Origin: a virus
Virus record (IMG/VR): IMGVR_UViG_3300009702_000048
Span: 1-39,112 of that record
Reading direction: 5' to 3' (one strand)
Length of the DNA: 39,112 nt
The notes under the pieces are model-generated. The model saw only the letters and a program-made list of their open reading frames with translations. It made no database searches and was not told the DNA's origin. The position numbers and the translations under genes are program-made. This document shows, piece after piece, positions 6,917-28,318 of the stretch. How positions within the stretch are numbered: the stretch's first letter is position 1; each line of letters opens with the position of its first letter.

Positions 6917-6932
6917 GCGACCACGTGGTCGC
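6917..6932. repeat. 16-bp perfect palindrome GCGACCACGTGGTCGC, copy 1
   Basis: The self-complementary sequence lies three bases after the frameshift-extension stop and 17 bases before the small gene at 6950. Identical copies lie at 20126 and 28302, all between genes. It could be an operator for a dimeric regulator, or form a hairpin with a 6-bp stem and ACGT loop. No T-run follows, so a simple terminator is unlikely. Confidence 0.85.
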
Positions 6933-6949
6933 AGTAGGAGAGAAAGCTC

Positions 6950-7093
6950 GTGGCGTTGGTAGCGGAGAGAGGGAAGGCGGCCTCGGTCACCACCGAAGAG
7001 GTGGATCGGATGGTCGCGCTCTACCTCGGCACCCCTGTCTCGCGTTGCGAGCGCAAGTACAAGATCGCCCTCGGCGAGTTTGGTGGGCAGTAG
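6950..7093 (+). CDS. Small 47-residue protein before the tape measure gene
   Basis: It has a GTG start with TAGGAG nine bases upstream and a TAG stop at 7091-7093. The product has an N-terminal basic segment, a helix (TTEEVDRMVALYLG) and a short Cys-containing end (VSRCERKYKIALGEF). Codon third positions are strongly G/C, as in neighbouring genes, whereas the overlapping frame 6925-7093 lacks this bias, so this small frame is the better call. The family is not recognised. Its stop lies two bases before the proposed tape measure start, suggesting translational coupling. Confidence 0.6.
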   Translation: MALVAERGKAASVTTEEVDRMVALYLGTPVSRCERKYKIALGEFGGQ

Positions 7094-7095
7094 TC

Positions 7096-10000
7096 ATCGC
7101 GCTGAACTTTTTGGGCCTCGGTTTCAGTTTTGGCGCGAAGGACGCCGGGCTCGGGTCGTTCCTGTCAGGGGTCGACGCCCAGTTCCAGCAAGTCACTGAG
7201 ACGCTGAGGGGCCTCTACAGCGTCGCCGACACGGCTCCCCAGGTGGGCGGGCAGGCAGCGATGGCAGGAGCCTCAGGGGCCCCAGGAGCCCTTGCAGGGG
7301 CCGCTGAGGCTGCGGCAGGGCTTGGGGATGTGGGAGACGCCGCAAAGGCCGTAGAGGGCGTCTCAGAGGCCGCAGACGCCGCTTCTGCGGCTGGCGACGC
7401 CATGTCGACGCTTGGGAGTGCGGGCCACACCGGTGGCAAGTTGCTGTCGGGTGGGGCCTTCAAGGCGGTCGGGGCCCTGGGCAGGGTCGCAGGTGCGGCG
7501 GGGATCGTCGGGATGGCGATCGGCCCGGTGATCTCGGGTTTCGGCGAGGCGGTGAACGCGGTCCAGGGCTTCGGGGAGCAGGTCGGCGGGTTCCTTCCCG
7601 GCATGGTTCAGCGGGGGATGGACGGCATCTCTCGGATGAACCAGGGCATCAACCTCACAAACTCGTTGGAGGCAGAGGCTCAGGGGCTCTCGGTGTCGGC
7701 TCGCTCGCTCGGCGCGAACCTGGGCTACACTGGGGATCGACTCAACGACTTCACCCATCGGGCGACATCGATGGCCATGGCCCTCAACATGGGCTCCGAT
7801 TCGACGGGGAAGGCGATCCGTGCGTGGGATGAGGCGGGCACCGAGCTGAGGTCCCTCGGCTTCGGGGGCGCGGCTGATGTGGCGCGGTTCACTGAGGCGT
7901 TCGGGGTCGACGCGGACACCTTGCGTAACAGCACGATGCAGATGACTCGGGAGTTCGGTCTCACGACCGACCAGGTCCGGCAAGTCATGTCCTCGACCGT
8001 TGCGTATGGGCAAGCCTCTGGCGATGTCAGTGGGGCGATCGGTGGGCTAGAGGCCTCGATGTCTCATATGCGCGAGGAGGCGTCCCTGATGGGGGAGACC
8101 CTCAACTCTGATGAGCTGATGCGCCACGCTGCAAGTGCTCAGGCACTTGCGGCCGGGCTCTTCCAGGTGGGGCAGACGTCGGGGCAAACTCTCGAAGCCT
8201 CGCAGTCCCTTGCGCAGACGATGGTGGATTCTCGTCGGGAGTTCCACAACATGTTCGCCGGAACGCAGGACGAGCTACCGGGGTTCGCGAACGAGATCGC
8301 AATCGCCACGGGCGATGTTCAGCAAGCGTTCGATGCCATGCAGCAAGGGCCCTCCGAGTTCGTCGAGGGCATGATCGGGCTCGTGGAGCAGACCCGGCAG
8401 AGTAGGGGTGACGTAGGGCGTCTTCTCGGGTTCATGAACTCCCGATTGGAGCAGACGCTAGGCCCGGAACAGGCGGCACAGCTCACGAACTTCTTCCGAC
8501 AGGCCAACCCTGAGATCCTCGACATGATGCACAATGTCGCAGGGGCCTCACGGAATCTCGGAGACATGGGTCGCGAGGCGCATCGAACGGGCCGCACCCT
8601 TCAGGAATCCTTCGACCGCGCGCTCGAAGGGGCCAATACCGCGCTCAGATCTGTGACTCGTCGAGACACCGCCTCGTTCGTGCGTGACACGGGCCGAGAG
8701 ATGCGCCGGCTAGGTGGAGCGTTCCGAGATGTCGGGAATCAGCAAGGCCCGCTCGGGGAGGTGGTCAAGCTCATGTCGCGGACGGCTCAGATGGGCCAGC
8801 TCGGACTGGTGCCGGAGCGGTTCCGCACGACTGCGGTGATGGCGAACCAGATCCACGAGAACATGCAGCCGCTCATCGCTTCGCTCACCAGCTTCGGGGG
8901 CATGTTGGACTTCGCGGCGACGCAGGGGATCCTCTTCGGCACCCGAGTCGTGCAGAACATGGAGGCGGCCCGGGCTCAGATGTCGGACACCGCGGATGAG
9001 TCTGCGGTGCTTCGGACAGCCTTCGACATCACGGCCAACGAGTTTGCGGACTCCTGGATCGACTCCATCGACACCTTCGAGCGCTACTTCACGACGTTCG
9101 TGGAAGGCTTCGAGGGGATCAACTGGGCGAACCTCTTCACGCCGTCCGATGCGGACACCGCAGAGGGTGCAGATGGTGCGATGGGGGCCTTCCAGCATGT
9201 CGTCCAGAGGCTTCGACAGGTGGACTGGTCGGGGATCTGGCAGTCTCTCGCGAACGGGGCCCAGCACCTCTGGGACTACTTGCAGCCCTACATGCAGACG
9301 GTCTGGAACGACTTTCAGAGGTGGATCGTTCCCGAGCTGGAGGGGGTCTGGAAGGACATCACGGACGCTTGGAATGACTGGTGGGATGCGAACTGGATGG
9401 CGGTGGCGACAGGGCTCGCTGTGTTCATGACAGCGATCTTTGTCACTGCAATCTTGGCGGCTCTTGCTGCGCTTGCGATTGTCATCGTTGCGTCGTTCGT
9501 GCTCACGTTCCTCGCACCCTTCCTCCTGGTCGGCGCTCTCCTCGTCGGTGCGTGGGAGCTGGTCGGGGACAGTCTCACTGAGGCCTGGCACAGCTTTACG
9601 AACTCATGGTCGGAGGCGCTTGACTACATGCCAACCCTCTGGAGTGACTTCACTTCCTGGCTCGGTGGGCTGTGGGACGACACCTGGAATGGGACCTCGG
9701 AGACGTTCGAGAGCGCCATGACGGGGAGCGGGGAGTTCTTCAAGAACATCTGGACAGGGATCACCTCCTGGTTCAGCGATCTATGGTCGGGGGTCGTCGA
9801 TACCTGGCAGGGGATGTGGGATGGCATCTTCGAGTTCTTCGATGGGATCGCTCAGGGCTTCCGCGATGTGTGGCAGGGGGTCGCGGATTGGTTCACCGGG
9901 GTCTGGGGTTCCATTAGTGGGCCGATCGACACGATGCTCGAAGGGGCCCGTGCGGTCTTCAGCACCTTGAGCGGGGCTGGCGAAGACGCGATGCACAGCA

Positions 10001-10719
10001 TCGGGGACGCCGCGGAGGAGGTCTTCGGAAACTCGGTAAACGACGTTGTGGGCGAGGACATGGATGCGACACAGGGGGTCATCACGGCTGCGTCCGAGGC
10101 ATCCGCGCAAGCCGTTCGCGACATCCTCTACAACCAGACCCTCCAGGCGATCACGTCGGCTTTCGCTGACGCTTACACCCAGGTGTCGGAGAACACGGGG
10201 GACTTCACGGCGGGGCTCGAAGAGGCGTTCACGAACCTTGGTGACACGATCAGCACGATCCTCGGTCAGATCTTCCTCAACATCGTCAACGGGTCGATCG
10301 TCACGATGCAGGTCGCGGAGGATGCGGCGTCGGGGATCATCCAGAACCTCCAGGCGATGGCACAGGCCCAGCGTGCGCTCGCGGACGCCCGGTTCATGGC
10401 AGCGGACGCCCTGACCCCGCAGGCCTCGCCGCAGGCACAGGAAGCTCGGGTGCGTGCCATCGAGCAGGGGCCGGAAGTCATCCGCGCGATCCACTATCCG
10501 GAGTGGTACGAGCGCAGCGGGACAGGCTATCAGGACCTCTTCCGCAACAAGATGGACCAACTCATCGGCGCGGTACATTCGGGTTCGGGCGGGCAGACGA
10601 CGGCGGCCACCCGTCCTGACGCAGCGAGACAGCGTCGAGAGTTTGCGGCGCGTGCAGCGGCGGCATTGGAGCGAGGGCTCCCGGCTTCTGCGGCAACGCC
10701 CGCTGGGATTCGGAGGTAA
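7096..10719 (+). CDS. Tail tape measure protein
   Basis: This is a protein of about 1,207 residues, the longest gene here, placed right after the tail chaperone as in most long-tailed phages. It determines tail length, fills the tail tube and is ejected with DNA. The N-terminus (ALNFLGLGFSFGAKDAGLG) is typical. Residues ~50-170 are Ala/Gly-rich and the central part is helical. Residues ~767-822 form a long hydrophobic membrane-compatible block, and ~710-945 is a Trp-rich repeated region (SWFSDLW, DTWQGMW, DVWQGVADWFTGVW). No ATG, GTG or TTG starts the conserved N-terminus. The codon where Met is expected is ATC at 7096, eight bases after GGTGGG. An in-frame GTG at 6925 would add 57 unlikely residues overlapping the small gene. 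Confidence 0.88.
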   Translation: MALNFLGLGFSFGAKDAGLGSFLSGVDAQFQQVTETLRGLYSVADTAPQVGGQAAMAGASGAPGALAGAAEAAAGLGDVGDAAKAVEGVSEAADAASAAGDAMSTLGSAGHTGGKLLSGGAFKAVGALGRVAGAAGIVGMAIGPVISGFGEAVNAVQGFGEQVGGFLPGMVQRGMDGISRMNQGINLTNSLEAEAQGLSVSARSLGANLGYTGDRLNDFTHRATSMAMALNMGSDSTGKAIRAWDEAGTELRSLGFGGAADVARFTEAFGVDADTLRNSTMQMTREFGLTTDQVRQVMSSTVAYGQASGDVSGAIGGLEASMSHMREEASLMGETLNSDELMRHAASAQALAAGLFQVGQTSGQTLEASQSLAQTMVDSRREFHNMFAGTQDELPGFANEIAIATGDVQQAFDAMQQGPSEFVEGMIGLVEQTRQSRGDVGRLLGFMNSRLEQTLGPEQAAQLTNFFRQANPEILDMMHNVAGASRNLGDMGREAHRTGRTLQESFDRALEGANTALRSVTRRDTASFVRDTGREMRRLGGAFRDVGNQQGPLGEVVKLMSRTAQMGQLGLVPERFRTTAVMANQIHENMQPLIASLTSFGGMLDFAATQGILFGTRVVQNMEAARAQMSDTADESAVLRTAFDITANEFADSWIDSIDTFERYFTTFVEGFEGINWANLFTPSDADTAEGADGAMGAFQHVVQRLRQVDWSGIWQSLANGAQHLWDYLQPYMQTVWNDFQRWIVPELEGVWKDITDAWNDWWDANWMAVATGLAVFMTAIFVTAILAALAALAIVIVASFVLTFLAPFLLVGALLVGAWELVGDSLTEAWHSFTNSWSEALDYMPTLWSDFTSWLGGLWDDTWNGTSETFESAMTGSGEFFKNIWTGITSWFSDLWSGVVDTWQGMWDGIFEFFDGIAQGFRDVWQGVADWFTGVWGSISGPIDTMLEGARAVFSTLSGAGEDAMHSIGDAAEEVFGNSVNDVVGEDMDATQGVITAASEASAQAVRDILYNQTLQAITSAFADAYTQVSENTGDFTAGLEEAFTNLGDTISTILGQIFLNIVNGSIVTMQVAEDAASGIIQNLQAMAQAQRALADARFMAADALTPQASPQAQEARVRAIEQGPEVIRAIHYPEWYERSGTGYQDLFRNKMDQLIGAVHSGSGGQTTAATRPDAARQRREFAARAAAALERGLPASAATPAGIRR

Positions 10720-10722
10720 CGG

Positions 10723-11049
10723 ATGGCTGTCAAGGTTCGCCGTTTCAGTCGTCTTCGCTTCGGTGAGCTGATCACCGTGGACGGGGTTGAGTTTTGGGAT
10801 GTGCTCGACCTCCCCACGATCCCCGAGCAGCCTGACGACCTCCAGTACCAGGTTCGCAAGCCCGACCGGATCGACCTGCTCGCGCAGCGGTTCTACAAGG
10901 ACGTGCGCCTGTGGTGGGTCATCGCGGTGGCGAACGACATGGAGATCATTCCTACCGACCTGAACGAGGGGGATGAGATCCGCATCCCGAGCCCCCGCTA
11001 TGTGAAGCAGGAACTCTTCAAGAAGGCCTCGGTGGGGGCTCGTGGCTAG
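10723..11049 (+). CDS. Baseplate LysM/gp53-like protein
   Basis: This 108-residue protein follows the tape measure by three bases, with GGAGGTAACGG upstream. The central part (YQVRKPDRIDLLAQRFYKD, then LWWVIAVAND, then DLNEGDEIRIP) matches the LysM-like fold used by T4 gp53-type and tail-X-type baseplate proteins: a repeated helix pair ending in a G-D/E-x-I-x-I-P strand. In phages these link the hub, the tube and the wedge rather than bind cell wall during infection. Its end overlaps the next gene's GTG start by eight bases, indicating coupled translation with the hub. Confidence 0.8.
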   Translation: MAVKVRRFSRLRFGELITVDGVEFWDVLDLPTIPEQPDDLQYQVRKPDRIDLLAQRFYKDVRLWWVIAVANDMEIIPTDLNEGDEIRIPSPRYVKQELFKKASVGARG

Positions 11050-12445
11050 CTACGACTTCTCTGGTCCGTTTGTCGCGGCGAGGATCGTTGACGCGGAGGG
11101 GAACGTCTTCCCCCTGTGGACGAACACCCAGCAATCCACGCAATCGACCTTCGACAACGAGGCGGAGATCGAGCTGGGGGCGCTCTCCTATCTCCAGAGC
11201 GTGACGGTCGAGCTGAACCTCTCCGGGCTTCCGAAGATCTCTGCGTCTCTGGCGCCGACTTTCGAGGCGGGGGTCAAGTTCATCGACTCCAAACTCGCGG
11301 ACTCCGGCGGCGCCAACTTCCTGGAGGTCCAGTTCGGGTACACCGGGGGTGTGGAAGATGGCTCTGTGGTGCTCTCTCCGGTCTACGGTGGGATCGTGCT
11401 GAACCCTGAGGTCAGCATCGCGGAGGACATCACCATCCAGCTCAACGCACAGGGCACCGGGGGCTTCGCCATGGTGAGGCAGACGGGCACCCGCACGGCT
11501 CAGGAGGGGGAGACCCGGAGGGAGATGATCCAACGCCTCGCCGCGGGGGCGAATCGGGAGCGGAACACTACGGTCAACTTCGAGGACGCGGATAAGAACG
11601 ACGCAGCACGCGCGGCGCTCGATGCCGCGGTGGACTACACGCAGGGCGGGCGCACCGACTGGTTCGCGATCTGGGAGCTGGCCAACAGTGCAAACTGCTG
11701 GCTGCTCGTCATCGGCGATGAGCTGCGCGTGCTCTCCCGGGCTAATCGCCTCCAGGGTCCGCCGACACGGATCCTCTATCTCTACAACTACCCCGGGGGC
11801 CGCCTCGGAGGCCTAACTCGGCGTCCCGGCCAGACCCAGGACGACCCGGTGGGGACGTATCCGATTCTCAGCTTCGATTCTCCGACCAACGCGGTCTACC
11901 TCCCCGGCAGTGTGCGGGGCATCCGTGTGGAGGACGTCGATGAAACTTCTCGCGAGCCCGTGAGCGTCGACATCAACGACGCCAACGACCGTCCCGAGCG
12001 CACAGGCGAGGGCGCAGCGGAGCCCGAGGGCAGTGCGGTGCTCACGAACGTAGAGGAGGAGACGGGCGATGGTGGAGAGCGCCGTCCTGGAGACCCTCTC
12101 GACCATGAGGCTGTCGAGGCCGCCCGAGAGGACTTCTACAGGGGCTCGAACCTGGGCATCCAGGTCGAGATCGAGACCGTCGGTATTCCCGACCTCTTCC
12201 CGGGTGAGATTGTGAAGATCGTTGGGGTCGGGCAGCGCTTCGAGCGGAACAACTACGCCGTTCACAAGGTGGTTCACAACCTGGGGCTCGACGGGTTCAC
12301 CACGCAGCTCACGTGCGTGAGCAACGTGGACGCGCTCACGGCGGGTGTGGCGGCGCAGGGTCCGGCCAACACGCGGGAGGCCGAGCCCTCCACCACAGAT
12401 ACGGCGGAGGCGACCGCTGACCCCGACCAGGCGGCGCCAGCATGA
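11042..12445 (+). CDS. Baseplate hub protein (gp27/gpD-like)
   Basis: This 467-residue protein sits between a LysM-like protein and the spike, the standard hub position. It starts at GTG 11042 inside the preceding gene. The N-terminal ~150 residues are beta-rich (IELGALSYLQSVTVELNLSG). A middle section resembles the tube-like hub domains of T4 gp27 and P2 gpD (RREMIQRLAAGANRE, then WFAIWELANSANCWLLVIGDELRVLSR). A strand (LFPGEIVKIVGVGQRFERNNYAVHKVVHNL) with a following TQLTCVSN segment is typical of the C-terminal hub beta domain. The last ~40 residues are acidic and disordered-looking. It would form the trimeric hub holding the spike. Confidence 0.82.
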   Translation: MASYDFSGPFVAARIVDAEGNVFPLWTNTQQSTQSTFDNEAEIELGALSYLQSVTVELNLSGLPKISASLAPTFEAGVKFIDSKLADSGGANFLEVQFGYTGGVEDGSVVLSPVYGGIVLNPEVSIAEDITIQLNAQGTGGFAMVRQTGTRTAQEGETRREMIQRLAAGANRERNTTVNFEDADKNDAARAALDAAVDYTQGGRTDWFAIWELANSANCWLLVIGDELRVLSRANRLQGPPTRILYLYNYPGGRLGGLTRRPGQTQDDPVGTYPILSFDSPTNAVYLPGSVRGIRVEDVDETSREPVSVDINDANDRPERTGEGAAEPEGSAVLTNVEEETGDGGERRPGDPLDHEAVEAAREDFYRGSNLGIQVEIETVGIPDLFPGEIVKIVGVGQRFERNNYAVHKVVHNLGLDGFTTQLTCVSNVDALTAGVAAQGPANTREAEPSTTDTAEATADPDQAAPA

Positions 12446-13269
12446 CCGCGGACGACCTTGTTGACCTGATGATGACCTACGGGATCGAGCGTCTCTCGAT
12501 CTTTCCTGGGCTCTATCGCGCAGTGGTCGTCCGCACCGATGACCCCGAGGAGCGAGGGCGCATCCAAGTTCGGGTGCCTACGGTTTCGGGTGCGGTGAAC
12601 ACCATCAACGTATGGGTGAAGCCGGCCATCATGGGTGCGGGCTTGAAGCGCGGGTGGTTCTGGCCACCGGACGAGGGTGATGTCGTCTATGTGAGTTTTC
12701 GACAGGGGCACCCCGGAAAGCCGGAGCTGTACTTCGGAGGCTTCTACGGTCGCCCGGATGACGAGACCGACGTGGCAGATGAGCTGGGCTATGGGGGCAA
12801 CGGGCTTCCGGAGCGACGAGGGCTACGCACGCGCGCGGGCCACTACTTCGTCTTCAACGACACAGCGGGCGAGGAGGCGATCGAGCTGGTCTGGAACCAG
12901 CCGGATGACAACCCCGACGATCGGGCAACGACGGCTTCTGCGGGCACGCAGATGTCGATGAAGTTCACCAAAGACGGGATGGTCATCTTCACGGACAAGG
13001 CGGCGCAGAAGGTCACTCTCGATGGGGCGAACAAGAAGGTCGTGGTCGAGGACGCGAATGGGAACGTGCTGACGCTCGACTCCAATGGGGTCACCGTGAA
13101 GTCCGACGCGATCATGCTGAGCGATCAGGCGGACACGGAGGCGATGCGCTTCTCCGACTGGCAGCGATGGGCGCTGGCGCACACGCATCCGACCGGTACG
13201 GGCCCTTCGGGTCCTCCGATCCAACCCATTCCCAGCACGGTCGCGTCGACCGTCGTAAAGCTCAAGTGA
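12442..13269 (+). CDS. Baseplate spike protein (gp5/gpV/VgrG-like OB domain)
   Basis: This 275-residue protein overlaps the hub gene by four bases (ATGA). Residues ~20-110 form the OB-fold seen in gp5/gpV/VgrG spikes: LYRAVVVRTDDPEERGRIQV, then WVKPAIMG, FWPPDEGDVVYVSFRQGHP and ELYFGGFYG. Repeats (KVTLDGANKKVVVEDANGN, LTLDSNGVTVKSD) make a short beta-helix, and the C-terminus has the HTHPTGTGPSGPP stretch typical of spike tips. No lysozyme domain is present, unlike T4 gp5. It punctures the outer envelope when the sheath contracts. Confidence 0.92.
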   Translation: MTADDLVDLMMTYGIERLSIFPGLYRAVVVRTDDPEERGRIQVRVPTVSGAVNTINVWVKPAIMGAGLKRGWFWPPDEGDVVYVSFRQGHPGKPELYFGGFYGRPDDETDVADELGYGGNGLPERRGLRTRAGHYFVFNDTAGEEAIELVWNQPDDNPDDRATTASAGTQMSMKFTKDGMVIFTDKAAQKVTLDGANKKVVVEDANGNVLTLDSNGVTVKSDAIMLSDQADTEAMRFSDWQRWALAHTHPTGTGPSGPPIQPIPSTVASTVVKLK

Positions 13270-13700
13270 TGCCCCTGGTTGTTGCCACGCTCCAGAATGG
13301 TTTGAAGCGGGTCTTCGATGCAGGGGCGGAGAACGAGGCGACCGCCATCAACGGATGGGTCAACGCGGTTCTCCAGTACGCGAGTCCGATCGTTCCTCCG
13401 AGCACGACCGTGGCCTTGGCGGCCCAGTCTCTCCGCTCGGGGCTCTCAGGGTTCAGTCAGGATAGCGGGGCTCTCTCGAAGCTCCCTTCGGCGATGGCGA
13501 CTTTCGCCGGGGTCGTGGCTACGAGCATGGTGCCTACAGGGCCCCCTTTCACCCCTGCGGTGCCGCCAGCGGCTCCGCTTGTCATCCCTTTCGTTCTCGC
13601 TACGGACTCGACCCAGGCGGCCCAGGTCATCGCTGCGGCGATCGACGCTTGGATGCGAACGGGGATTGGTCCTGCTACTGCCCTCTCTCCCTGGTCATGA
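13269..13700 (+). CDS. Unknown baseplate-region protein
   Basis: This 143-residue protein begins at ATG 13269, overlapping the spike stop by one base. A longer in-frame opening from 13167 would lie wholly inside the spike gene and is rejected. It is rich in Ala, Ser and Pro, with a Pro-rich section (TGPPFTPAVPPAAPLVIPF) and a C-terminal helix (TQAAQVIAAAIDAWMRTG). The family is not recognised. Lying between spike and gp25-like genes, it is most likely a baseplate or tail accessory protein. Confidence 0.7.
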   Translation: MPLVVATLQNGLKRVFDAGAENEATAINGWVNAVLQYASPIVPPSTTVALAAQSLRSGLSGFSQDSGALSKLPSAMATFAGVVATSMVPTGPPFTPAVPPAAPLVIPFVLATDSTQAAQVIAAAIDAWMRTGIGPATALSPWS

Positions 13701-13715
13701 GGTAAACTCGATCCG

Positions 13716-14099: not shown

Positions 14100-14107
14100 G
14101 AGGAACT

Positions 14108-16276: not shown

Positions 16277-16382
16277 CGGGCGAGTAGCTAGCTCGACGCA
16301 CCCCTTCGGGGATCCTAAGATCGGGACAGGCGTGTGCTAAACTCGCACCGTCTACCCACACACGCTTTAGGAGTAGGATCAA

Positions 16383-18329: not shown

Positions 18330-18352
18330 GCTCGGCGGTCGTGTAGACTAGG

Positions 18353-18387: not shown

Positions 18388-18409
18388 GAATGAAGGACGA
18401 AGGAAGACG

Positions 18410-19000: not shown

Positions 19001-19014
19001 CAGGACCTTCTGAG

Positions 19015-19245: not shown

Positions 19246-19277
19246 CGGTCTATCGAGTTTGAGGTATAAGTGATCCC

Positions 19278-19730
19278 ATGCCGATCCCTCGGTTCGAGGT
19301 CCCTTCCGGGACCATCGACGGCGTCAACACCGTCTTCAACGTTTCGGCGCCCTACCAGCCAGGGACGACCGCGGTGTACCTGAACGGCCTCCTCCAGGAG
19401 CCCTCGCTCGATGACGGCTGGACGGAGACAGACCCGCTCACGGGAGAGGTCACGCTCAAGGAGGCGCCCAAGAGCCTCGGTGCCTGTCCGGACGTTCTCC
19501 AGGTCTTCTTCCTCGATACGAGCCCTCAGCTCCCTGAGTCGGTCATTGACCGCATCAAGGGGCGCCTGAGCGCCGTTGGGGACCTCAAGGGTAGTCTGAC
19601 CCTCACCAGCCCCCTTGCGGGCCTTGTAGAGGCGTCTGGGACGCTTCAGGGGGCCTTTATGGCTTCGACTCAGCTCAAGGGTCTGGTAGAGCCTGCGGGG
19701 GCCCTCAAGGGCCGTTTGGAGTCGTGCTGA
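19278..19730 (+). CDS. Fibre/adhesin module with six exact decapeptide repeats
   Basis: This is a 150-residue protein. Residues 1-80 are a paralog of the preceding 76-residue module. Residues ~91-150 consist of six 10-residue repeats with a (L/I)-x-G core at positions 93/95, 103/105, 113/115, 123/125, 133/135 and 143/145, e.g. SGTLQGAFMA, STQLKGLVEP, AGALKGRLES. Strict 10-residue periodicity suggests a small beta-solenoid or spike-like stack. The start at 19278 lies 15 bases after the GG of a GAGGTA motif. The stop overlaps the next gene's ATG by one base. Confidence 0.72.
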   Translation: MPIPRFEVPSGTIDGVNTVFNVSAPYQPGTTAVYLNGLLQEPSLDDGWTETDPLTGEVTLKEAPKSLGACPDVLQVFFLDTSPQLPESVIDRIKGRLSAVGDLKGSLTLTSPLAGLVEASGTLQGAFMASTQLKGLVEPAGALKGRLESC

Positions 19731-20125
19731 TGGCGAACACCTCATCCATCGTGGGGACCGAGAACGAGATCGAGATCGTGCGAGGCACCTCGAAAAACTT
19801 CGAGCTGTCGGTCTGCGATGACGCGGGGGCCTTCGTGGACCTCACGGGAGCGCGCTTGATTGCGACCGTGAAGTGCGACCTTCGGGAAGATCGGATCTCG
19901 ATCCAGAAGGACAGCCAGGTAGGCCCGGCGGAGATCGAGATCTACACTCAGACGGGGGACACCCTTGGCAAGGCCTTGATCAAGTTTGCCCCGTCGGATA
20001 CGCAGAACCTCGACCCGGGCGAGTACATCTTCGATGTCTGGGTCATCCTCTCTTCGGGGGCTCGTCACATTGTGGTCGGTCCTGATCCCTTCATCATCGA
20101 GCGGGGCGTGACCGTCTTGACCTGA
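19730..20125 (+). CDS. Baseplate-upper-protein-like (BppU-type) immunoglobulin-like domain
   Basis: This 131-residue protein begins at ATG 19730, overlapping the previous TGA. The pattern IEIVRGTSKNFELSVCDDAG, a VDLTGARLIATVK strand, FAPSDTQNLDPGEYIFDVWV and the closing FIIERGVTVLT is the beta-sandwich layout of BppU N-terminal-type domains found in phage baseplates and fibre adaptors. It may anchor fibres to the baseplate. The 16-bp palindrome (copy 2) begins immediately after its stop. Confidence 0.75.
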   Translation: MANTSSIVGTENEIEIVRGTSKNFELSVCDDAGAFVDLTGARLIATVKCDLREDRISIQKDSQVGPAEIEIYTQTGDTLGKALIKFAPSDTQNLDPGEYIFDVWVILSSGARHIVVGPDPFIIERGVTVLT

Positions 20126-20141
20126 GCGACCACGTGGTCGC
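20126..20141. repeat. 16-bp perfect palindrome GCGACCACGTGGTCGC, copy 2
   Basis: The palindrome abuts the stop codon of the BppU-like gene and lies 44 bases before the fibre gene at 20186. It is identical to the copies at 6917 and 28302. Confidence 0.85.
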
Positions 20142-20185
20142 AGCCGAGGATTGCATGGCGAGCCTAGAAAACTGCGGAGAGCCGA

Positions 20186-21220
20186 ATGCCTAACACGTCC
20201 CGGATGAACTGGATCTTCCCATCGGAGAACCAGACTCCGTACTTCGACGCCATCGAGGCCTTCTACGGGCAACAGGACGCCGCAGCCTACGCTGCGCGCG
20301 AGGACCGCCACATCATCCTCCGAGGTGGGGGCACGGTCTCGTTCGTCACTGCCGGGGGCACGCTCTCGTGGACTGACGACTTCGAGATGCTGGCAGCCGT
20401 CACCGGGTTCAAGTGGCGGATCCCTGCCAGTAGCATCCAGCTCCTCGATGGGGAGATCGCTTGGGTCGAACTCGTTCGGGCACCGTCCAACAACCTGGTC
20501 GTGGTGCTCCAGAAGGGGAACCAGATCCCGAGCAGCGACACCGCACACATCCTGGGCGTGCGCGTAGGCGCGCGAGTCTACTTCTTCAACGGATCCTCGG
20601 TCATCCAGGGCTCGCCGGTCACCGACATCGGTGCGGGAGGGGGCGGGGGCGGAGGGTCCGCTCTCGAAATCTTGGACGAGGGGACTTCGCAGACGGCGGG
20701 CGCGACGTCCATCGACTTCGTGGGTTCCGGAGTCACCGCCTCGGCAGCCGGTTCAGCGGTCACGGTTACGGTCGGTGTGGGCGGAGGTGTTCCGCAGATG
20801 ACCGGCAATACCCGGGTGCAGGTGGTCGACGACACGCTCCTCAATGCCGAGATAAAGCTCGGTGGCTTCCAGTTCAACCCCTCGCTGTTCTCCGGCAGCA
20901 CGATGGTTCTCGGGGGCTTGGTAACCCTCACGGACGCAGGCGGGGTCGCCCCGGCGCTGGACCTTCGTCTCTACGACATGGGGACCACGCTGGTGCCTCA
21001 GGCGGGTGACTTGAGGGCTTCTCGGCTCTTCTCTATCCCGGGCTCGCTCCGTTTCGAGCAGACTATTCTCGTTCCCTCTGCGACGCCTACAACGCCCGGG
21101 TCGAGTCCGGATGACGGGACGATGTACGACGTGGCTCGCATCTACGAGGTGCGTGCGCTGCTCACAGGGGATGCAGGGGACCTGGCGGAGATCGACTGGG
21201 CAGGGATCCAAGGGGTCTAG
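20186..21220 (+). CDS. Tail fibre/adhesin-like protein with Gly-rich hinge
   Basis: This 344-residue protein starts behind GCGGAGAGCCGA. Residues 1-150 form an attachment-like domain (MNWIFPSENQTPYFDAIEAF, then a beta region with FEMLAAVTGFKWRIPA). A polyglycine hinge (GAGGGGGGG, ~150-158) follows, then a Ser/Thr/Val beta segment (SGVTASAAGSAVTVTVGVGGG). The C-terminal ~140 residues resemble a jelly-roll-like fibre head (GGFQFNPSLFSGSTMVLGGL). Gly hinges between anchor and head are common in fibres, so receptor binding is inferred. The 34-base gap after it holds AAAACTTGAGGTAGG. Confidence 0.68.
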   Translation: MPNTSRMNWIFPSENQTPYFDAIEAFYGQQDAAAYAAREDRHIILRGGGTVSFVTAGGTLSWTDDFEMLAAVTGFKWRIPASSIQLLDGEIAWVELVRAPSNNLVVVLQKGNQIPSSDTAHILGVRVGARVYFFNGSSVIQGSPVTDIGAGGGGGGGSALEILDEGTSQTAGATSIDFVGSGVTASAAGSAVTVTVGVGGGVPQMTGNTRVQVVDDTLLNAEIKLGGFQFNPSLFSGSTMVLGGLVTLTDAGGVAPALDLRLYDMGTTLVPQAGDLRASRLFSIPGSLRFEQTILVPSATPTTPGSSPDDGTMYDVARIYEVRALLTGDAGDLAEIDWAGIQGV

Positions 21221-21254
21221 CTGGTACTGAAAACTTGAGGTAGGGTGCGGATCG

Positions 21255-24194
21255 ATGCCGGGTTACGGATCAGGACCATTTGGAGGAGAGCCCTTCGGCG
21301 AGTTCAACTGGGCTCGTCGTGTCCTCTTCGATCTGGCTCCAGTCCTCTACCGGGAGGAGGATGTCGACGACCTCTTCCTGAAGTACGCGGACTCGCAGGG
21401 GGAGGTCTTCACGGACCTGCGAAGGCAGATCCGTAACTTCTTCGAGCTGCGCGAGGCTCGGGCGGTGCGGACGCAGTTTGACGAGACGGGGCTGCTCCTT
21501 CTCGGCGCCATTCAGCTCATCAAGGAGCCGGTTGAGCAGACGGGCATCCGAGGGTCGGTTACGGGTGTGAGCGTCTTCCAGACCGAGCGAGGTCGCTTCA
21601 CCTTCGCGGACGTGGGCAAGGAGCTGACGGTCACTAACTCGACCCTCGCAGACAACAACACCTCGGTGGTCATCACCTCGGTGGTCGACTCCACGTCGGT
21701 GCTCACCAACCCCCCGCTCGTCGTAGACGCCGGCCCTCTCCGCTGGGAGGTCCGACCCGTAAGTGCTTCGCTCACCAACGAGACGATCGTCGAGGTGGTG
21801 TCGGGGGACGTAGAGCCGATAGGTCCAGGGTGGATCCTTTCAGACGGCTCGACCGAGTTCGAGGTCACCGAGCGTAAGCAGTTCTTCAATATCGAGGACG
21901 AGCGAAAGCTCCAGACCGAGCGAGAGGGGCAAGACGGGGCGATCAACGCGAGCCTGCGACTCACGAGCCCGACAGCCGCGTTCCAGCGCCGGGATGTGGG
22001 CAAGCGCATTACGGTCTCGGGATCGACTGCACTCAAGCCCGCGGTCGACAGCTCCAACGAGGGCAAGTTCACCATCGTCGAGCTGATCAGCGCCACGGAG
22101 GTGGTGCTCGATTCGCCGTTCCTCTTCCAGGAGGTGGGGCCCCTCACATGGGCGATCCTCCGGAGGCCTCAGCTCACCCTGAGCGGGACCTCAACGCTTC
22201 GGGGGGCGGTTGAGCAGTCCGGGGAGGACATGACGACGATTGTGGGTCCGCTCCTTCAGGCCTTGTCGGGGGCGTTCAGCAGCGCGGATATCGGAAAGCT
22301 CGTCACGGTCTACGCGGAGAACGATATCAACAACGGGGTCATCTTCGAGGTGACCGGGGCCCCTACAGCCAACCAGCTTGAGGTGACTCCCAATCCGACC
22401 CTCACGGGCTCCACCTACCGCTACGAGCTGCGGGCGGCGACGACCGAAGGGGACACCCGCCAAGTCTCGGTCCGGGCTCCCGGTCTCCTGCGGTGGCTCG
22501 CACAGGACTTCGGGATCGAGATCGACGTGCGCGAGGAGGAGGAGTTTCAGCGTCGGTGGGTCGAGAGCGTTTCTAGGTGGATCGGTCTCAAGGGTACGGT
22601 GAAGGGCTATCAGTACCTTGCCGCGCTCACGGGGTACTCTCCGACGACAGTCGAGCCCCTCTATCGGGTCACCCTGGAGCTGTACCAGGCGGTGCTCACG
22701 GCCGGAGGTACGGCCTACGCCGTCGGAGAGGGCCTCCCAGGGGCCGACGGGAGCCTCAACCTGGTGAGTGGTCGGGTGAGATTTTCCTCGCCTACAGCGG
22801 CTTTCACGGCCGCGCACGTGGGGCGTGCGGTCGAGACGACGGGGACGGGCGCGGGAACGAACGACGGCTTCCGTGTCATCGACCTGGTCATCGATGCGCA
22901 CACGATCGCGTTCCGACCCGTTGACACGATGGGGGGAACGGCTGACGCGAACAACGGGGCGATCGTCTGGCGGCTGGTTCGGTTCTACTCCGTAGAGGCT
23001 CCGTTGATCCCTGTCTACGATGAGATCAACGCCGACCGGATGGAGTACTTGAAGACCTCCGCGGTCTTCACCGTCGACAAGTATTGCTGGGAGCAGTCGC
23101 CTTCGCCGTGGAGCACCCTCATCGGCTTCGGTGCGGACGGGCTGATCGAGATCACCGGCGTGACGCCCACGGCGGCCAGCGCGTTTCCAACCACCTACAC
23201 GCTGCGGGGCCAGGGGGACTTCGATGTGGTTACGGGGCTCGGGGTGGGCCGGTGGAAACTCACGAACTTCGGGACGGAGTACTTCCTGGAGACGGTGCCC
23301 AAGTTCCCCCTGATTCGGTCAGGGGCGATCATCGATCCGACTGGGGCGAACCTTCCGGCGGGTACGGAGCTGGAGGATGTGGACGCCTTCGAGATCGACA
23401 CCTCCGTGGCCCCCTTTACGGTCACGGCTACTGACGGTCTGGGCACCTTCGGCAACGTTCGACCCGGGGACATCTTCGTCGTGACCGGGGAGTCGGTGCG
23501 AGTCCCTCCGGGGGCTCTCCCAGCGAAGCTCCTGGACGGTTGGCGTGTCGCCTCGGTCGCGCCGGACGGCTCCAGCTTCGAGCTGGACGCTTCGTACACG
23601 CTCGCGTCCACGGGTCTTCCTTCCTTCATCCGGAATGTGAAGGGCACGGTCATCGAGGTCTTCAACGATGGCACCGCCCACTCGGGGGTCGACGGGAGTT
23701 TGACAGGCGCGGCTCCGGCTCGACTCACGATCGGGTCGGTGGGCTTCGACCCTTTCGCGGATGACGGGAAGCGTGCGCTCGTCTTCCAGAGCGGCTCGGG
23801 GAACAACGGGACGGTCATTTTGGACACCTATGTCTCGGGTACGGACTTCGATCTCGACCCTACGGATACTCCGACCACCCCTGATGCGAACAACGCGGCG
23901 CTGACTTGGGCCCTGGTGGAGTTCGAGTTTCAGGTGGTGGCGACGACCCCTCCGAGTACTGGGGTTTCGACTATCGAGTACATCTGTGCGGAGGTTCTGA
24001 GCTGCGACTTCTGCAAGTCGCACCGGATCCGGATCGAGACTACGACTCCGTATGTGCTAGAGGGTGGGATTGAACGGCTCCGAGATCGGATCGGGCAGAC
24101 GACGCCCGAGCACGTGGAGGTAGTTGAAGCCTATGGAGTGAGACCTCTAGCGACCCTGGCCTTCTCGGCTTCCGGGTCTTCGACCTTCCCGTAA
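21255..24194 (+). CDS. Phage tail protein I-like baseplate wedge with repeated beta modules
   Basis: This is a 979-residue protein. The start (GYGSGPFGGEPFGEFNWA, then VLFDLAPVLYREEDVD) and the section LLRWLAQDFGIEIDVREEEE, RRWVESVSRWIGLKGTVKG, YQYLAALTGYSP are typical of P2 gpI / T4 gp7-like wedge proteins. Interspersed are about five beta modules of 65-80 residues (roughly 101-167, 229-303, 325-393, 498-577, 811-893) sharing a phrase such as FTFADVGKELTV plus a closing L-x-W strand. A Cys cluster (ICAEVLSCDFC) occurs near 912-921. Standard gpI is ~200 aa, so most of this length is inserted modules. It connects baseplate to fibres. Confidence 0.78.
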   Translation: MPGYGSGPFGGEPFGEFNWARRVLFDLAPVLYREEDVDDLFLKYADSQGEVFTDLRRQIRNFFELREARAVRTQFDETGLLLLGAIQLIKEPVEQTGIRGSVTGVSVFQTERGRFTFADVGKELTVTNSTLADNNTSVVITSVVDSTSVLTNPPLVVDAGPLRWEVRPVSASLTNETIVEVVSGDVEPIGPGWILSDGSTEFEVTERKQFFNIEDERKLQTEREGQDGAINASLRLTSPTAAFQRRDVGKRITVSGSTALKPAVDSSNEGKFTIVELISATEVVLDSPFLFQEVGPLTWAILRRPQLTLSGTSTLRGAVEQSGEDMTTIVGPLLQALSGAFSSADIGKLVTVYAENDINNGVIFEVTGAPTANQLEVTPNPTLTGSTYRYELRAATTEGDTRQVSVRAPGLLRWLAQDFGIEIDVREEEEFQRRWVESVSRWIGLKGTVKGYQYLAALTGYSPTTVEPLYRVTLELYQAVLTAGGTAYAVGEGLPGADGSLNLVSGRVRFSSPTAAFTAAHVGRAVETTGTGAGTNDGFRVIDLVIDAHTIAFRPVDTMGGTADANNGAIVWRLVRFYSVEAPLIPVYDEINADRMEYLKTSAVFTVDKYCWEQSPSPWSTLIGFGADGLIEITGVTPTAASAFPTTYTLRGQGDFDVVTGLGVGRWKLTNFGTEYFLETVPKFPLIRSGAIIDPTGANLPAGTELEDVDAFEIDTSVAPFTVTATDGLGTFGNVRPGDIFVVTGESVRVPPGALPAKLLDGWRVASVAPDGSSFELDASYTLASTGLPSFIRNVKGTVIEVFNDGTAHSGVDGSLTGAAPARLTIGSVGFDPFADDGKRALVFQSGSGNNGTVILDTYVSGTDFDLDPTDTPTTPDANNAALTWALVEFEFQVVATTPPSTGVSTIEYICAEVLSCDFCKSHRIRIETTTPYVLEGGIERLRDRIGQTTPEHVEVVEAYGVRPLATLAFSASGSSTFP

Positions 24195-24202
24195 GGAAAC
24201 TC

Positions 24203-24703
24203 ATGCCCACCGTCATCCAGGCCATCATTCCGAACGCTGCGCTCGATGCGGTTCTCCAGAACTTTGGAGGGCTCAGCGGGCCTCCGGCTATTCTGATCGA
24301 CTCCTTCAAGGTGGGGGAGGGCGGGTACGAGATCACCCCGTCGGGCAACGTTCCGCGGGATCCCTCAGACCCCGGTTCTCTGAACACCCGTGGGCCCTAC
24401 CTGACCGACCTGGATGCCCTCCAGAACCCTTCGGACTACCCGACAGCTACAGGGACCTTCTCGAAGGCCCTGGCGACGCCTGCGGACTTCAACTTCGATG
24501 TGCCCACGAGGTCGTTGGAGGTAACCTGCCTGCTAGACTTCGGGGAGTTCAATGACGACGGCTTTGGAAACGCCCCTGAAATCTACGAGATCGGCCTCTT
24601 CGCTGGTACGCTTCTGGTCGCCTACGGTACGATGACGAAGCAGGTCAAGACGCTGGGCGTCCAGATCCCCAACGTCGTCCGGATCACGGCTACAGGAACC
24701 TAA
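24203..24703 (+). CDS. Tail-collar/fibre N-terminal-like protein
   Basis: This 166-residue protein starts nine bases after the wedge gene. Its second half (NAPEIYEIGLFAGTLLVAYG, then TKQVKTLGVQIPNVVRI) matches the phrase that ends the tail-collar fibre domain in many myoviruses. Its first half (IDSFKVGEGGYEITPSGN) is also typical of that domain. It stands alone, without a distal fibre, just before the large fibre gene, suggesting a baseplate adaptor for fibres. The stop and next start are one base apart. Confidence 0.78.
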   Translation: MPTVIQAIIPNAALDAVLQNFGGLSGPPAILIDSFKVGEGGYEITPSGNVPRDPSDPGSLNTRGPYLTDLDALQNPSDYPTATGTFSKALATPADFNFDVPTRSLEVTCLLDFGEFNDDGFGNAPEIYEIGLFAGTLLVAYGTMTKQVKTLGVQIPNVVRITATGT

Positions 24704-24704
24704 G

Positions 24705-27299
24705 ATGCCCGTAACGCTCAGCCAGTTCACCAACAGTGAGATCGACGTCCGGTACAAGGAGGAGTTCCTCTCCGGGTCGATGAACACCAAGGTGGGTGGA
24801 GGGATCATCCCCACCGGGATCCACTCCGGCTTCTACCTCACGACGAGCGGCGTAGCGCTCTCGGTCACGGTGGATCCGAGCAGCGACACGCAGAACATCG
24901 CGATGACTCCCTCGGGGGACTTCGTGGTCACGCTGCGGCGGACGGGGAGCCAGGCTGTCGACCTCTCCTCGAAGGTGAGCACGACCGTCGCGATCTGCCT
25001 GTACGCAAACTACGCTATCGGGGGAACGACAGCGGGGGAGATCCGGGCCTATGAGACCTCCCCCACCGACGAGCTGACGGTTGCTCCGGAGTTCGACGAC
25101 CTGGTCATCCTCGGCGAGGTGGTGGTCCCAGCCTCAGGGGTTATCGCGGGTTCGAGTATCACCGCCAACCGGAGGACGCCGGCGGCCGAGTTTGTTCTGC
25201 CTGGTCAGAAGCCCCTGACCTCCCTGGTTCAGAACCCTGCCTTCACCTTCGGCGATCTGGGGTCAGCGTACTCGCTCAACACGCCCCCATGGGAGTGGCA
25301 GGCGACCAGCCCGACGGATACCCGGTTGCGGTGCAGCAACTCGAACGTCTCACCGGTTGCTGGCACGGATCGCTACCAGGCCGTGGAGGTGCTCTCGGCT
25401 TCGACTCCGGCCTCGCTGAGTCTCTACCAGGACCTCTCTTACCCCATCGTGCTCGGAGGGTCGTCGACCAAGGGCGAGCAGTTCATCCGAGTCCGTGCGC
25501 TCATTGGGGTCAACGCGGCAGCGGCCGGAGGTACTGCGCAGATCACCGTCCAGACGATGGACAACAACGGGAACTCAACCTTCGATGCGATGACCCTCTC
25601 GGTGGATCTTTCTTCCCCGGGGCTCCTCTCCATCAACGAGGTGGTCGAGGTCGCCTCTTCCGCTGAGGTGTACCTCTCGCGCATCGGGATCGACTTCGTT
25701 GGGGTCTCGTGGGGGACGACGGGCGAGCAGGTCGACATCTACTACTTGCAAGCTCAGATCGTTGACTACGAGTACACCGGGATTACCGACAAGGACCTGA
25801 AGGACTTTCGGATCTTTCAGACGATCATGGGCGGTCGGATGGCCCTATTCGATCGGAACGAACTGGATGGGACGAGCTTCACCTCGACCCCGAGTGTCAC
25901 TCCGGCAGTGTTGCTCCAGTTGCTTTCGAGGGGGACGGCGAACAGCAACCCTCTCTTGAAGCTCCTTCGGCTCGACCGCACCGATGAGGACAACACCAAC
26001 GGCGGTGTGAGCCTGGAGATGCGGGGGCATATCGAGCACCTGCACGAAGCGGATGTCAACAACGGGCTCCGGGACACGCCTGCGATCCAGTCGGTCTTTG
26101 CGGCGGCCGATTCATACACCTTGTTCTGGGAGTCCCAGTCGAGTTTGGGGCCAGGGGTTTCTCATCCGTCCTTGCGGCTCTACTCCAGTCACTCGGGTGA
26201 GATGTGGTTCACCTCGAACGCCTACTTCGAGCCGACTGGTGCTCTTTGGCACAAGGACACGGGCGCGGAGTCGACCGCGTTCGTGATCACGAACACGGAG
26301 GGGGTCAAGGTCCTCAAGGAGACCTCGGTCGTGTTGTCCACGACGTGGCTCAGCACCGCTTGGGACGAGTACGCGGTTGCTGCGGATCCCTCGGCAGTGA
26401 TGCGCCTCGGGGAGGGCCTCCAAGGGGCCATCGCTGATGCGCTGCTCCCCCGGGTTTCCGGGGTTACCGCGGGTGTCGGGGTCTCAGATCGAACGCTGAT
26501 GTTCGAGTTTGAGGACCCGAACCCTCCCAACAATCGCGTCCGCGTTTACCACGCCCCGAACGGGCTTGTTCCTGCCATTGGGGGTGAGCCGATCGAGATC
26601 ACCGAGAACGCCGAGTACTTGGCGACGGGGCAGTGGCAGAAGGACATCGCCACGAACCCCTCGGGGATCTGGTCGTTCGCTCGCTCGGGGATGGGGATCG
26701 GGTATCACCCCTCGACCGCTGACGGGGGGACCAACCCCTTCAACGACGGGGATTGGGATGAGACGATTCGGATGGATCAGGGGATCTCATCTTCCCCCAT
26801 CGGGGGCTTCACGCACGCGGCCGTCCTCGCTCGGGATGGGAGGCTCCAACTCTTCTCCCCCACGACCGAAGACCAGGGGTCCAACCCGCTGAACAACTCA
26901 CCGGTCGCTCCAGTAGCCAACACGCTCTACGCCAAGACGATGGTCAAGGCGATGGGCCGGTTCACCGTAACGAACGGTGGGGCCCCGGTGATCGACCAGG
27001 ACGCCAGCTTCAACATCTCGTCGATCACCAATCTCGGGCTCTTGGGGATGGATGTCGTTCTAAGGGCGCCTGTCGAGACCGACTCTCACTACGTGGTCGT
27101 GATCACGGGAGGTCTCATCACCTCAGTGGCCGCTAACACGCTCCCCGTGTACCAGGTTTCGGATGGTGCAGGGGGCCCGCCTGGAGACAACTTCATCATC
27201 GTCGGGGCGGATGCGAACAACCTGGCGAATCCCTTCAACTTCGGCTCGGCGAACTACAGCGACCGGGTGATGTTCATCATGTTGGGGAAGCAGACATGA
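24705..27299 (+). CDS. Large tail fibre / receptor-binding protein
   Basis: This 864-residue protein is the largest distal structural candidate here. The N-terminus (MPVTLSQFTNSEIDVRYKEE, then FLSGSMNTKVGGGIIPTGIH) resembles fibre starts that sit on the collar protein encoded just before. Beta-rich sections follow, with a galactose-binding-like jelly-roll region at ~150-340 (FGDLGSAYSLNTPPWEWQAT, then STPASLSLYQDLSYPIVLGG). Late blocks contain NNSPVAPVANTLYAKTMVKA, common in fibre tips. No lyase motif or chaperone was recognised. Recognition of the host surface is inferred. The next gene overlaps by four bases. Confidence 0.75.
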   Translation: MPVTLSQFTNSEIDVRYKEEFLSGSMNTKVGGGIIPTGIHSGFYLTTSGVALSVTVDPSSDTQNIAMTPSGDFVVTLRRTGSQAVDLSSKVSTTVAICLYANYAIGGTTAGEIRAYETSPTDELTVAPEFDDLVILGEVVVPASGVIAGSSITANRRTPAAEFVLPGQKPLTSLVQNPAFTFGDLGSAYSLNTPPWEWQATSPTDTRLRCSNSNVSPVAGTDRYQAVEVLSASTPASLSLYQDLSYPIVLGGSSTKGEQFIRVRALIGVNAAAAGGTAQITVQTMDNNGNSTFDAMTLSVDLSSPGLLSINEVVEVASSAEVYLSRIGIDFVGVSWGTTGEQVDIYYLQAQIVDYEYTGITDKDLKDFRIFQTIMGGRMALFDRNELDGTSFTSTPSVTPAVLLQLLSRGTANSNPLLKLLRLDRTDEDNTNGGVSLEMRGHIEHLHEADVNNGLRDTPAIQSVFAAADSYTLFWESQSSLGPGVSHPSLRLYSSHSGEMWFTSNAYFEPTGALWHKDTGAESTAFVITNTEGVKVLKETSVVLSTTWLSTAWDEYAVAADPSAVMRLGEGLQGAIADALLPRVSGVTAGVGVSDRTLMFEFEDPNPPNNRVRVYHAPNGLVPAIGGEPIEITENAEYLATGQWQKDIATNPSGIWSFARSGMGIGYHPSTADGGTNPFNDGDWDETIRMDQGISSSPIGGFTHAAVLARDGRLQLFSPTTEDQGSNPLNNSPVAPVANTLYAKTMVKAMGRFTVTNGGAPVIDQDASFNISSITNLGLLGMDVVLRAPVETDSHYVVVITGGLITSVAANTLPVYQVSDGAGGPPGDNFIIVGADANNLANPFNFGSANYSDRVMFIMLGKQT

Positions 27300-27688
27300 G
27301 CTTTACTGTTCAGTGGTTCCGGCAGACTGACGGTCGGGATATCAACCCCGATCTGACGGTGACTCCGAAGGGGGTCACGGTGGGTCAAGGGTCTTGGGTC
27401 TTGCGCGGGCAGAAGGTCGTGCTTGAAGCGGACGCTGTTTGGTCGCACAGATCCCGGGCGAAGGACGTCCAGGTGATTGCCTACCTTGTCCGGCACACAG
27501 GCACGCAGGCGATCTCCGTGCTCGTGGACGAGATCGTGGAGGACGGGGCGGACTTCCCCTACAGCTTCGACATCGGCCCCTACGAGGAGCTGTGGAAGCT
27601 GTGGTACCTGAAGATCCCAGGAGGGACGTCGGATCTGACAGCCCTTGAGGGGATTTGTTTTCGCACGAAGGTCTTCGAGGAGGGCTGA
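27296..27688 (+). CDS. Unknown fibre-adjacent structural protein
   Basis: This 130-residue protein overlaps the fibre gene by an ATGA. It is beta-rich: FTVQWFRQTDGRDINPDLTV, RGQKVVLEADAVW, then an LWKLWYLKIPGGTSDL strand. There is no cysteine cluster or membrane segment. The family is not recognised. Coupling to the fibre gene suggests it is a fibre accessory or assembly factor. It overlaps the next gene by one base. Confidence 0.7.
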   Translation: MSFTVQWFRQTDGRDINPDLTVTPKGVTVGQGSWVLRGQKVVLEADAVWSHRSRAKDVQVIAYLVRHTGTQAISVLVDEIVEDGADFPYSFDIGPYEELWKLWYLKIPGGTSDLTALEGICFRTKVFEEG

Positions 27689-27891
27689 TGGCTTCCAACG
27701 TTATCGACACGAAGGACATCGAGGAGCACGACCAAGAGGTACGAGCGCGTCGTCGGCGGCACCGTCGCGAGACGAAGGGCTCCGACCTCAAGGACCTCTC
27801 CTTCGAGGCTCTCACCCCCGCCCAGCGGGACCGCCTTCTGAAAGCGGTGGCGATCAAACTCGGCCTGATCCAGGATAGTGAGGACCCATGA
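27688..27891 (+). CDS. Small charged helical protein
   Basis: This 67-residue protein begins at ATG 27688, overlapping the previous TGA. It is highly charged (DIEEHDQEVRARRRRHRRE), with a C-terminal helix (TPAQRDRLLKAVAIKLGLIQ). The family is not recognised. Tight overlap on both sides (one base before, four after) supports it as a real coupled gene. Confidence 0.65.
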   Translation: MASNVIDTKDIEEHDQEVRARRRRHRRETKGSDLKDLSFEALTPAQRDRLLKAVAIKLGLIQDSEDP

Positions 27892-28295
27892 GTGTGCGCG
27901 TGCGATTCAGGATGGAGGCTTCGGTCTCGTCGACCTCCAACGAAGAGAAGGACCTCGGCAACGTTGCCTATGAGGACGTCACGGATTCGCTCGGTGAGGG
28001 AGGGTCACGAAAGAACCTCTTGGCAGTCGGCGCGACCGATGTGGAGATCACCACGCGGGAGATTGCTGACAAGTCGTTCCTCCTCATCCGAACCAACGCT
28101 CGGTCGTCCACGGACACCCCCGGAACTGTCGAGATCAAGAAAAATAGTGTCGGTGGTGAGGTGACCAGCATCACTCCGCTGGCCACAACCCGCGAGGGGT
28201 TCATGCTTCTCACCACCTCCGGGATCACGGCGCTTTACGCCTCAAACATCGGCTCGGTGGACATGGAAGTCACTGTGGTGGCGGCCGGAGACTGA
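27888..28295 (+). CDS. Unknown beta-rich structural protein
   Basis: This 135-residue protein overlaps its neighbour by ATGA. It is beta-predicted, with SVRVRFRMEASVSSTS, a VEITTREIADKSFLLIRTNA stretch and SDTPGT-like turns. It resembles small virion decoration proteins in composition but matches no family I recognise. It is the last gene before palindrome copy 3 and a promoter-like stretch, so it may close a transcription unit. Confidence 0.68.
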   Translation: MSVRVRFRMEASVSSTSNEEKDLGNVAYEDVTDSLGEGGSRKNLLAVGATDVEITTREIADKSFLLIRTNARSSTDTPGTVEIKKNSVGGEVTSITPLATTREGFMLLTTSGITALYASNIGSVDMEVTVVAAGD

Positions 28296-28300
28296 GCGCC

Positions 28301-28318
28301 TGCGACCACGTGGTCGCA
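28301..28318. repeat. 18-bp perfect palindrome containing GCGACCACGTGGTCGC, copy 3
   Basis: The 16-bp core (28302-28317) is the same as copies 1 and 2. Here the flanking T and A extend the symmetry to 18 bp. It lies between the stop at 28295 and a promoter-like stretch at 28329-28358, a good place for an operator. Confidence 0.85.

Follow-up and report, generated by a model that had tools for sequence, protein, structure and literature searches.

We analysed a 39,112-nucleotide stretch of viral DNA (IMG/VR virus record IMGVR_UViG_3300009702_000048, positions 1 to 39,112; hereafter the window) in which the 16-bp perfect palindrome GCGACCACGTGGTCGC occurs three times, and we compared it with related viral records, all of which are metagenomic and possibly incomplete and carry gene calls of our own. 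The palindromes in the window belong to a network of short sites, most of them behind stop codons, that spans an uncultivated lineage of T4-like large phages. Judging from sequence comparison, these palindromes are probably double-stranded DNA sites for a symmetric (dimeric or pseudo-dimeric) protein, most likely phage encoded, and may act on transcription at gene boundaries; we put the probability of this reading at roughly 0.55.

An earlier note on the window had described three perfect copies of the palindrome, each just behind a stop codon and never inside a gene, one of them extending to 18 bp and preceding a promoter-like TTGACA. The window scan located the following features:

6917 to 6932, no strand: palindromic site 1, GCGACCACGTGGTCGC, 2 nt past the TAG (6912-6914) of a small open reading frame, with a GTG at 6950 another 17 nt on
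20126 to 20141, no strand: palindromic site 2, GCGACCACGTGGTCGC, adjoining the TGA of gene 19730-20125
28301 to 28318, no strand: palindromic site 3, the 18-bp TGCGACCACGTGGTCGCA with its 16-bp core at 28302-28317, 6 nt past the TGA of gene 27888-28295
28329 to 28334, plus strand: TTGACA without a matching -10 hexamer, from a sigma-70 promoter scan

All three copies are exact, their stop codons (6912-6914, 20123-20125, and 28293-28295) end 2, 0, and 6 nt before them, and none overlaps a called window gene (0/3), so the description held on each of these counts. No further copy appeared in the window when up to three mismatches were allowed, and the letter-reversed control gave 0 copies. The three sites are among the four longest perfect palindromes in the 39 kb; another 16-bp perfect palindrome, GTTCGTGATCACGAAC, is present once, at 26279-26294, within gene 24705-27299. 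The absence of T-runs past the copies was likewise confirmed, with none after site 1 and no intrinsic terminator at sites 2 and 3. The TTGACA did not stand as a promoter: the sequence is present, but the scan found no acceptable -10 partner for it and no sigma-70-like site anywhere in 20000-28500.

The window itself carries a contractile-tail module encoding sheath, tube, a T4_baseplate protein, tape measure, and baseplate wedge; a codon-usage gene call gave 51 genes, all on the plus strand, with a coding fraction of 96.5%. By tail sheath, the nearest isolates are Streptomyces phage BRock and its kin at ~31%, with no close isolate, and a DNA search with the window tail region returned no similar phage DNA. 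Single-protein searches for IMG/VR relatives with 27296-27688 and 12442-13269 recovered none, the divergence being too great for the method. The exact 16-mer, in contrast, was found in 52 stretches of viral contigs, several from the same large contigs. A sheath homologous to that of the window is encoded in 7 of 19 contigs tested, and gene families are widely common to the set. In BRock, the motif is absent and the only repeated intergenic palindrome is one tRNA-like word; BLAST with the motif itself as query gave no result.

Across the 16 related records, the count of GCGACC-N4-GGTCGC is 60, whereas the 59 half-site anagrams average 0.19, which excludes chance as the origin of the motif. Among other GCGACC/GGTCGC spacings from 0 to 12 in this 16-bp set, none exceeded 1 copy, and the N3 spacing gave 0. 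One 179-kb record (G002) holds 38 copies with up to two mismatches, and in one part of the lineage the 16-bp site takes the form GCGACCAYRTGGTCGC. Some single 16-mer matches in GC-rich contigs fall within genes and are probably due to chance. Sites in related records are not independent, so that p-values overstate certainty; the effect sizes are large.

The sites are concentrated between genes. With at most one mismatch, 80 of 100 sites of the 16-bp set are intergenic, compared with 14.4 expected. A 15-bp version of the site, described below, is intergenic at 22 of 24 sites (2.2 expected). For both kinds together, a stop triplet on the coding strand ends 0 to 6 nt upstream of 67 of 90 co-directional sites (74%), versus 18% at control positions, and the sites usually precede the next ribosome-binding site. 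Another 7 sites lie at convergent junctions, and some adjoin or separate tRNA genes. Very large tRNA arrays were seen in two records, with 42 tRNA genes in 40 kb of G002 (L070, L071) and 38 in G003 (L081), and the palindrome lies between some of these genes.

Some site-bearing junctions are shared by genomes with no more than ~40-50% protein identity. The interval of site 1, flanked by the T4_baseplate and tape-measure genes, holds a site in G000, G001/G008, G003, and G019. The junction orthologous to that of site 2 carries 16-bp-type sites in G003 (ACGACCACATGGTCGC) and G006 (GCGACCGCGTGGTCGC) and 15-mers in G023 and G022, the former with an A/T (W) centre and the latter with TCC/GGA arms. 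At the junction of site 3, G005 holds GCGACCACATGGTCGG, and no site was found in G003, G006, G022, G023, or G032. Recurrent sites also lie behind the capsid, single-strand-binding, and other genes in various subsets of the records. A further recurring word, GGAAAACTCC or one near it, was noticed close to the palindrome or to the next promoter-like TTGACA in several intergenic gaps of G002, G023, and G025.

The 15-bp version came to light among relatives that share a gene located in the tail operon of the phage:

5361 to 5945, plus strand: candidate site-binding protein, with an HNH-like zinc fold lacking catalytic histidines and a TraY-like tandem ribbon-helix-helix part (from Pfam, an AlphaFold model, and alignment)

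A profile search with this protein found 20 loci, 10 of which encode proteins 52-61% identical to that of the window and lack the 16-mer. These genomes, G020 to G029, could have counted as relatives without the motif and hence against a lineage trait; this was ruled out by a gapped-palindrome scan of intergenic DNA, which revealed GCGACC-N3-GGTCGC in this sister clade, with 18 copies, 0 with N4, and an anagram mean of 0.12. Every genome keeps its own word at its copies. The 16-bp words share the centre AYRT (Y, pyrimidine; R, purine). Among the 15-mers, the centre is W at 10 of 10 sites in G023 and 4 of 4 in G035, and S (G/C) in G025, G026, and G036. G022 uses GCGTCCA-W-TGGACGC, and G027 and G029 use GCGACCG-N-CGGTCGC, with CCG/CGG arms; in G020, an identical asymmetric word is found in opposite orientations. 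No repeated intergenic palindrome was found in G032 and G033 (98 kb each, partial) or in the shorter fragments G021 and G028. The variants form a natural series, differing by one spacer base pair, one central base pair, or matched arm changes, in which co-evolution of protein and site would be directly testable. Some records may be parts of the same phages. G002 and G005 come from one sample (3300036987), and their complementary gene sets point to a single phage genome, at least 255 kb long, split between the two records. G035 and G036 may continue the G023 and G025 phages, or else represent close kin, since their samples are identical or neighbouring in number.

The earlier note had left open whether the palindrome is an operator for a dimeric regulator or an RNA hairpin at unit boundaries. 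As RNA, the sequence would form a 6-bp stem with a 3- to 4-nt loop past the stop codons and could serve as a terminator, a processing site, or 3' end protection. Such a hairpin folds at all three window sites, at -12.8 to -19.5 kcal/mol in 41-nt windows; it would be stable as RNA, so that energy does not speak against it. Anchoring on the coding strand behind stop codons, the joint arm differences between genomes (G022, G027), and a coding-strand preference for a CA centre in G002 also speak for RNA. The variation among sites, however, points the other way. The central dinucleotide of the intergenic 16-mers is YR in 79 of 80 (CG 39, TG 23, CA 13, TA 4, other 1), the centre of the 15-mers is W or S according to genome, and either centre is kept whatever the strand. 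Single substitutions are symmetric at positions 1/16, 4/13, and 7/10 and rare or absent elsewhere in the arms. On the coding strand, 6 stem changes are wobble compatible, 8 are incompatible transitions, and 18 are uncompensated transversions; within genomes, stem changes thus go uncompensated, including mid-stem U-U and A-A pairs, with no preference for G-U (6 versus 8). There is also no T-run and no Rfam match. Because the centre is symmetric, the substitutions are symmetric, and neither wobble preference nor compensation is evident, double-stranded DNA is favoured, and we regard the RNA hairpin as quite unlikely. The operator half of the earlier proposal is thus well supported by the strand-symmetric variation, the genome-specific consensus, and the strong intergenic placement, and the hairpin half is not supported, given its stem changes.

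As for the protein that would bind these sites, the earlier note had named two ribbon-helix-helix-like products of the phage. For the protein of 5361-5945, Pfam gave an HNH match (PF01844, 0.00028) and a weak ParG match (0.013). Its AlphaFold model (mean predicted local distance difference test score, 74) places strand 86-93 before helices 95-104 and 114-127, and strand 145-152 before helices 153-165 and 170-192. The five best structural matches of the model are F-plasmid TraY chains, with Z of 8.4-8.9 and the next row at 5.5; the best (PDB 9f10) has Z 8.9 and a root mean square deviation of 3.0 over 99 aligned positions, spanning residues 85-186 at 9% identity. The model thus indicates that this really is a tandem ribbon-helix-helix protein, with two strand-helix-helix units per chain. 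Its strand residues N90, W92, K146, N148, and W150 are invariant in five homologues. The catalytic histidines of HNH proteins are expected at the DH/HH and CH positions. Here, the zinc cysteines and the Asn of the HNH part are conserved, and His at these positions is present in 0 of 18 homologues. Every record that spans the locus of this gene (18 of 18) encodes a family member; a search of 50,697 isolate phage records gave no match. In the first strand of the protein, N-F/I-W-V accompanies the 16-bp site and N-F-F-V the 15-bp site. The suggestion of ribbon-helix-helix proteins therefore gained a predicted fold for 5361-5945, with the binding itself at candidate level, and fared less well for the second protein:

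31446 to 31637, plus strand: small ribbon-helix-helix-like protein, a weak candidate with no Pfam match, found among the records compared in G000, G002, G003, G006, G022, and G023 only

A tandem MerR protein was rejected as the binder: it occurs in 12 records, including the site-less G032 and G033, and not in G002.

With double-stranded DNA as the preferred form of the site, a symmetric protein, most likely encoded by the phage, would bind the genome-wide network of palindromes, and the bound protein would block RNA polymerase in the gap or modulate it, thereby acting on transcription where genes meet, in a stoperator-like fashion. More tentatively, the binder may be the protein of 5361-5945, with one tandem ribbon-helix-helix unit per half-site. 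By analogy, stoperator-like control at gene ends appears the likeliest role. In cluster A mycobacteriophages, a genome holds up to ~30 short sites for repressors such as those of L5 and TipsytheTRex, many of them in narrow gaps between genes; these motifs are phage specific and co-vary with phage distance, and the sites stop elongation (PMC9283540, PMC6550527). The present sites likewise repeat one short motif many times in a genome, with enrichment between genes; the motif is phage specific and common to each genome's copies. Stoperators, however, are asymmetric, 13 bp long, and mostly of one orientation, and the temperate-phage repressor that binds them is monomeric (PMC9283540, PMC6550527), whereas those described here are symmetric, perfect or near-perfect palindromes of 15 or 16 bp with no defined orientation, and no tyrosine integrase (PF00589) match was found in 11 records, which are possibly incomplete. 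Since stoperators are asymmetric and orientation dependent, the analogy is one of working alike, not of membership. A role in starting rather than ending transcription, with the palindrome serving the downstream gene as a promoter or activator element specific to the phage, seems very improbable. Such an element would suit the 45 sites that lie 8-30 nt ahead of a start codon and the palindromes in the short gap between the capsid gene and the next gene in G020, G023, and G027. When a -10 box was looked for upstream of the near-start sites, though, no clear excess was found; the 7 sites at convergent junctions do not fit either, and G002 sites frequently adjoin a stop codon with the next start far off.

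Several observations weigh against this reading of the sites or against parts of it. In G002, the coding strand has CA at the centre of 18 sites and TG at the centre of 4 (p = 0.004), compared with 6:3 elsewhere; such a strand bias is not predicted for a symmetric site. If a protein sat 0-6 nt past the stop, polymerase would stall inside the gene, and a simple roadblock would therefore truncate the upstream message; moreover, the sites at convergent junctions need no operator. Nor does anchoring alone prove a role at gene ends, because in a compact genome any site that must stay intergenic could end up pressed between a stop codon and a ribosome-binding site. Regarding the candidate binder, the change from tryptophan to phenylalanine (W-to-F) that accompanies the shorter site may be one event on the tree, and the strand residues are unchanged where the half-site changes (G022, G027). 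G032 and G033 carry the tandem ribbon-helix-helix protein without repeated intergenic palindromes; because these two 98-kb relatives have the protein and not the sites, it is only a plausible candidate.

The main rival candidate binder is a ParB/KorB-like phage protein, for which the palindromes would be loading sites of a ParB/Noc/KorB-like clamp, resembling parS, Noc-binding (NBS), or KorB operator (OB) sites and serving genome organisation, segregation, or long-range silencing. A ParB_N (PF02195) protein scored above the Pfam cut-off in 9 of 12 records searched; its best PHROG match is a ParB-like partition nuclease, its gene lies in the replication module of most records, and its model matches Noc, ParB, and KorB chains over ~200 columns, the helical part being of low confidence. 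parS (TGTTTCACGTGAAACA) shares the 16-bp palindromic form and has CACGTG at its centre, and NBS sites occur widely along the chromosome (PMC7383237). Multiple copies of a site are thus common to KorB OB of plasmid RK2, parS, NBS, and these phages, which encode a ParB/KorB-like protein (PMC11790492, PMC7383237). On the other hand, the arms differ: comparison with parS or NBS TATTTCCCGGGAAATA failed to give a match, the overlap with parS being limited to the central CACGTG. No ParA-type ATPase (PF13614) match was found in 11 possibly incomplete records, binding by the phage protein is putative, and genome spacing does not require the strong concentration at stop codons and syntenic junctions. 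Further, G032 and G033 encode the ParB protein yet have no sites, and G002, which has the most sites and is possibly incomplete, has no ParB_N match; the missing gene in G002 is weak evidence, because G005 comes from the same sample with a complementary gene set. Overall, we consider such a clamp unlikely. Alternatively, a host protein might bind the sites, their versions differing as the hosts differ. The words indeed do not simply track the core phylogeny of the phages, as the core proteins of the window stand at ~50% to the 15-bp clade and at ~42% to the other 16-bp genomes. Among the matches listed for the exact 16-mer in bacterial and archaeal genomes, though, hits were scattered and single, with no genome repeated, and a host binder appears improbable.

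Apart from stoperators, the closest parallel to DNA sites for a symmetric protein is the SPBRE repeat of phage SPbeta, a 15-bp intergenic element found in silico long before its binder MrpR, a prophage repressor with a recombinase fold; about ten sites are located in promoter regions (PMC10516654). Here too, a repeated 15-bp intergenic element occurs in a large phage, but 74% of the tested sites come just after a stop triplet, and a repressor of that kind was not identified. The 5361-5945 protein shares with TraY the fold of residues 85-186 and differs from it in its additional HNH-like zinc domain, its tail-operon location, and its low identity. As a tentative idea that we hold to be possible at best, T4-like large phages could have a previously undescribed global control system in which a former HNH nuclease, now a tandem ribbon-helix-helix DNA-binding protein, reads the genome-specific palindromes behind genes; the lineage would then have moved from 16 to 15 bp in step with W-to-F in the DNA-facing strand. 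Temperate phages and plasmids are known to have genome-wide networks of one repressor site. The network described here, with ~40 copies in one record and a strong attachment to gene ends, belongs to large T4-like phages that showed no common-type integrase; one resolvase was seen, in G001. The sites provide a handle on gene timing in uncultivated phages.

Several other genes drew attention. Window positions 33294-35307 hold genes for a histidine kinase (HisKA, HATPase_c) and, after it, two response-regulator receiver proteins, an unusual set for a phage. The NUDIX-domain gene at 32455-33240 has two copies of a 106-bp repeat ahead of the domain, 114 bp apart and 94% identical. Finally, intein-like insertions were recognised by eye in polymerase, portal-like, helicase, and ParB-like genes of the relatives (G001_049, G001_035, G005_011, and G033_045).

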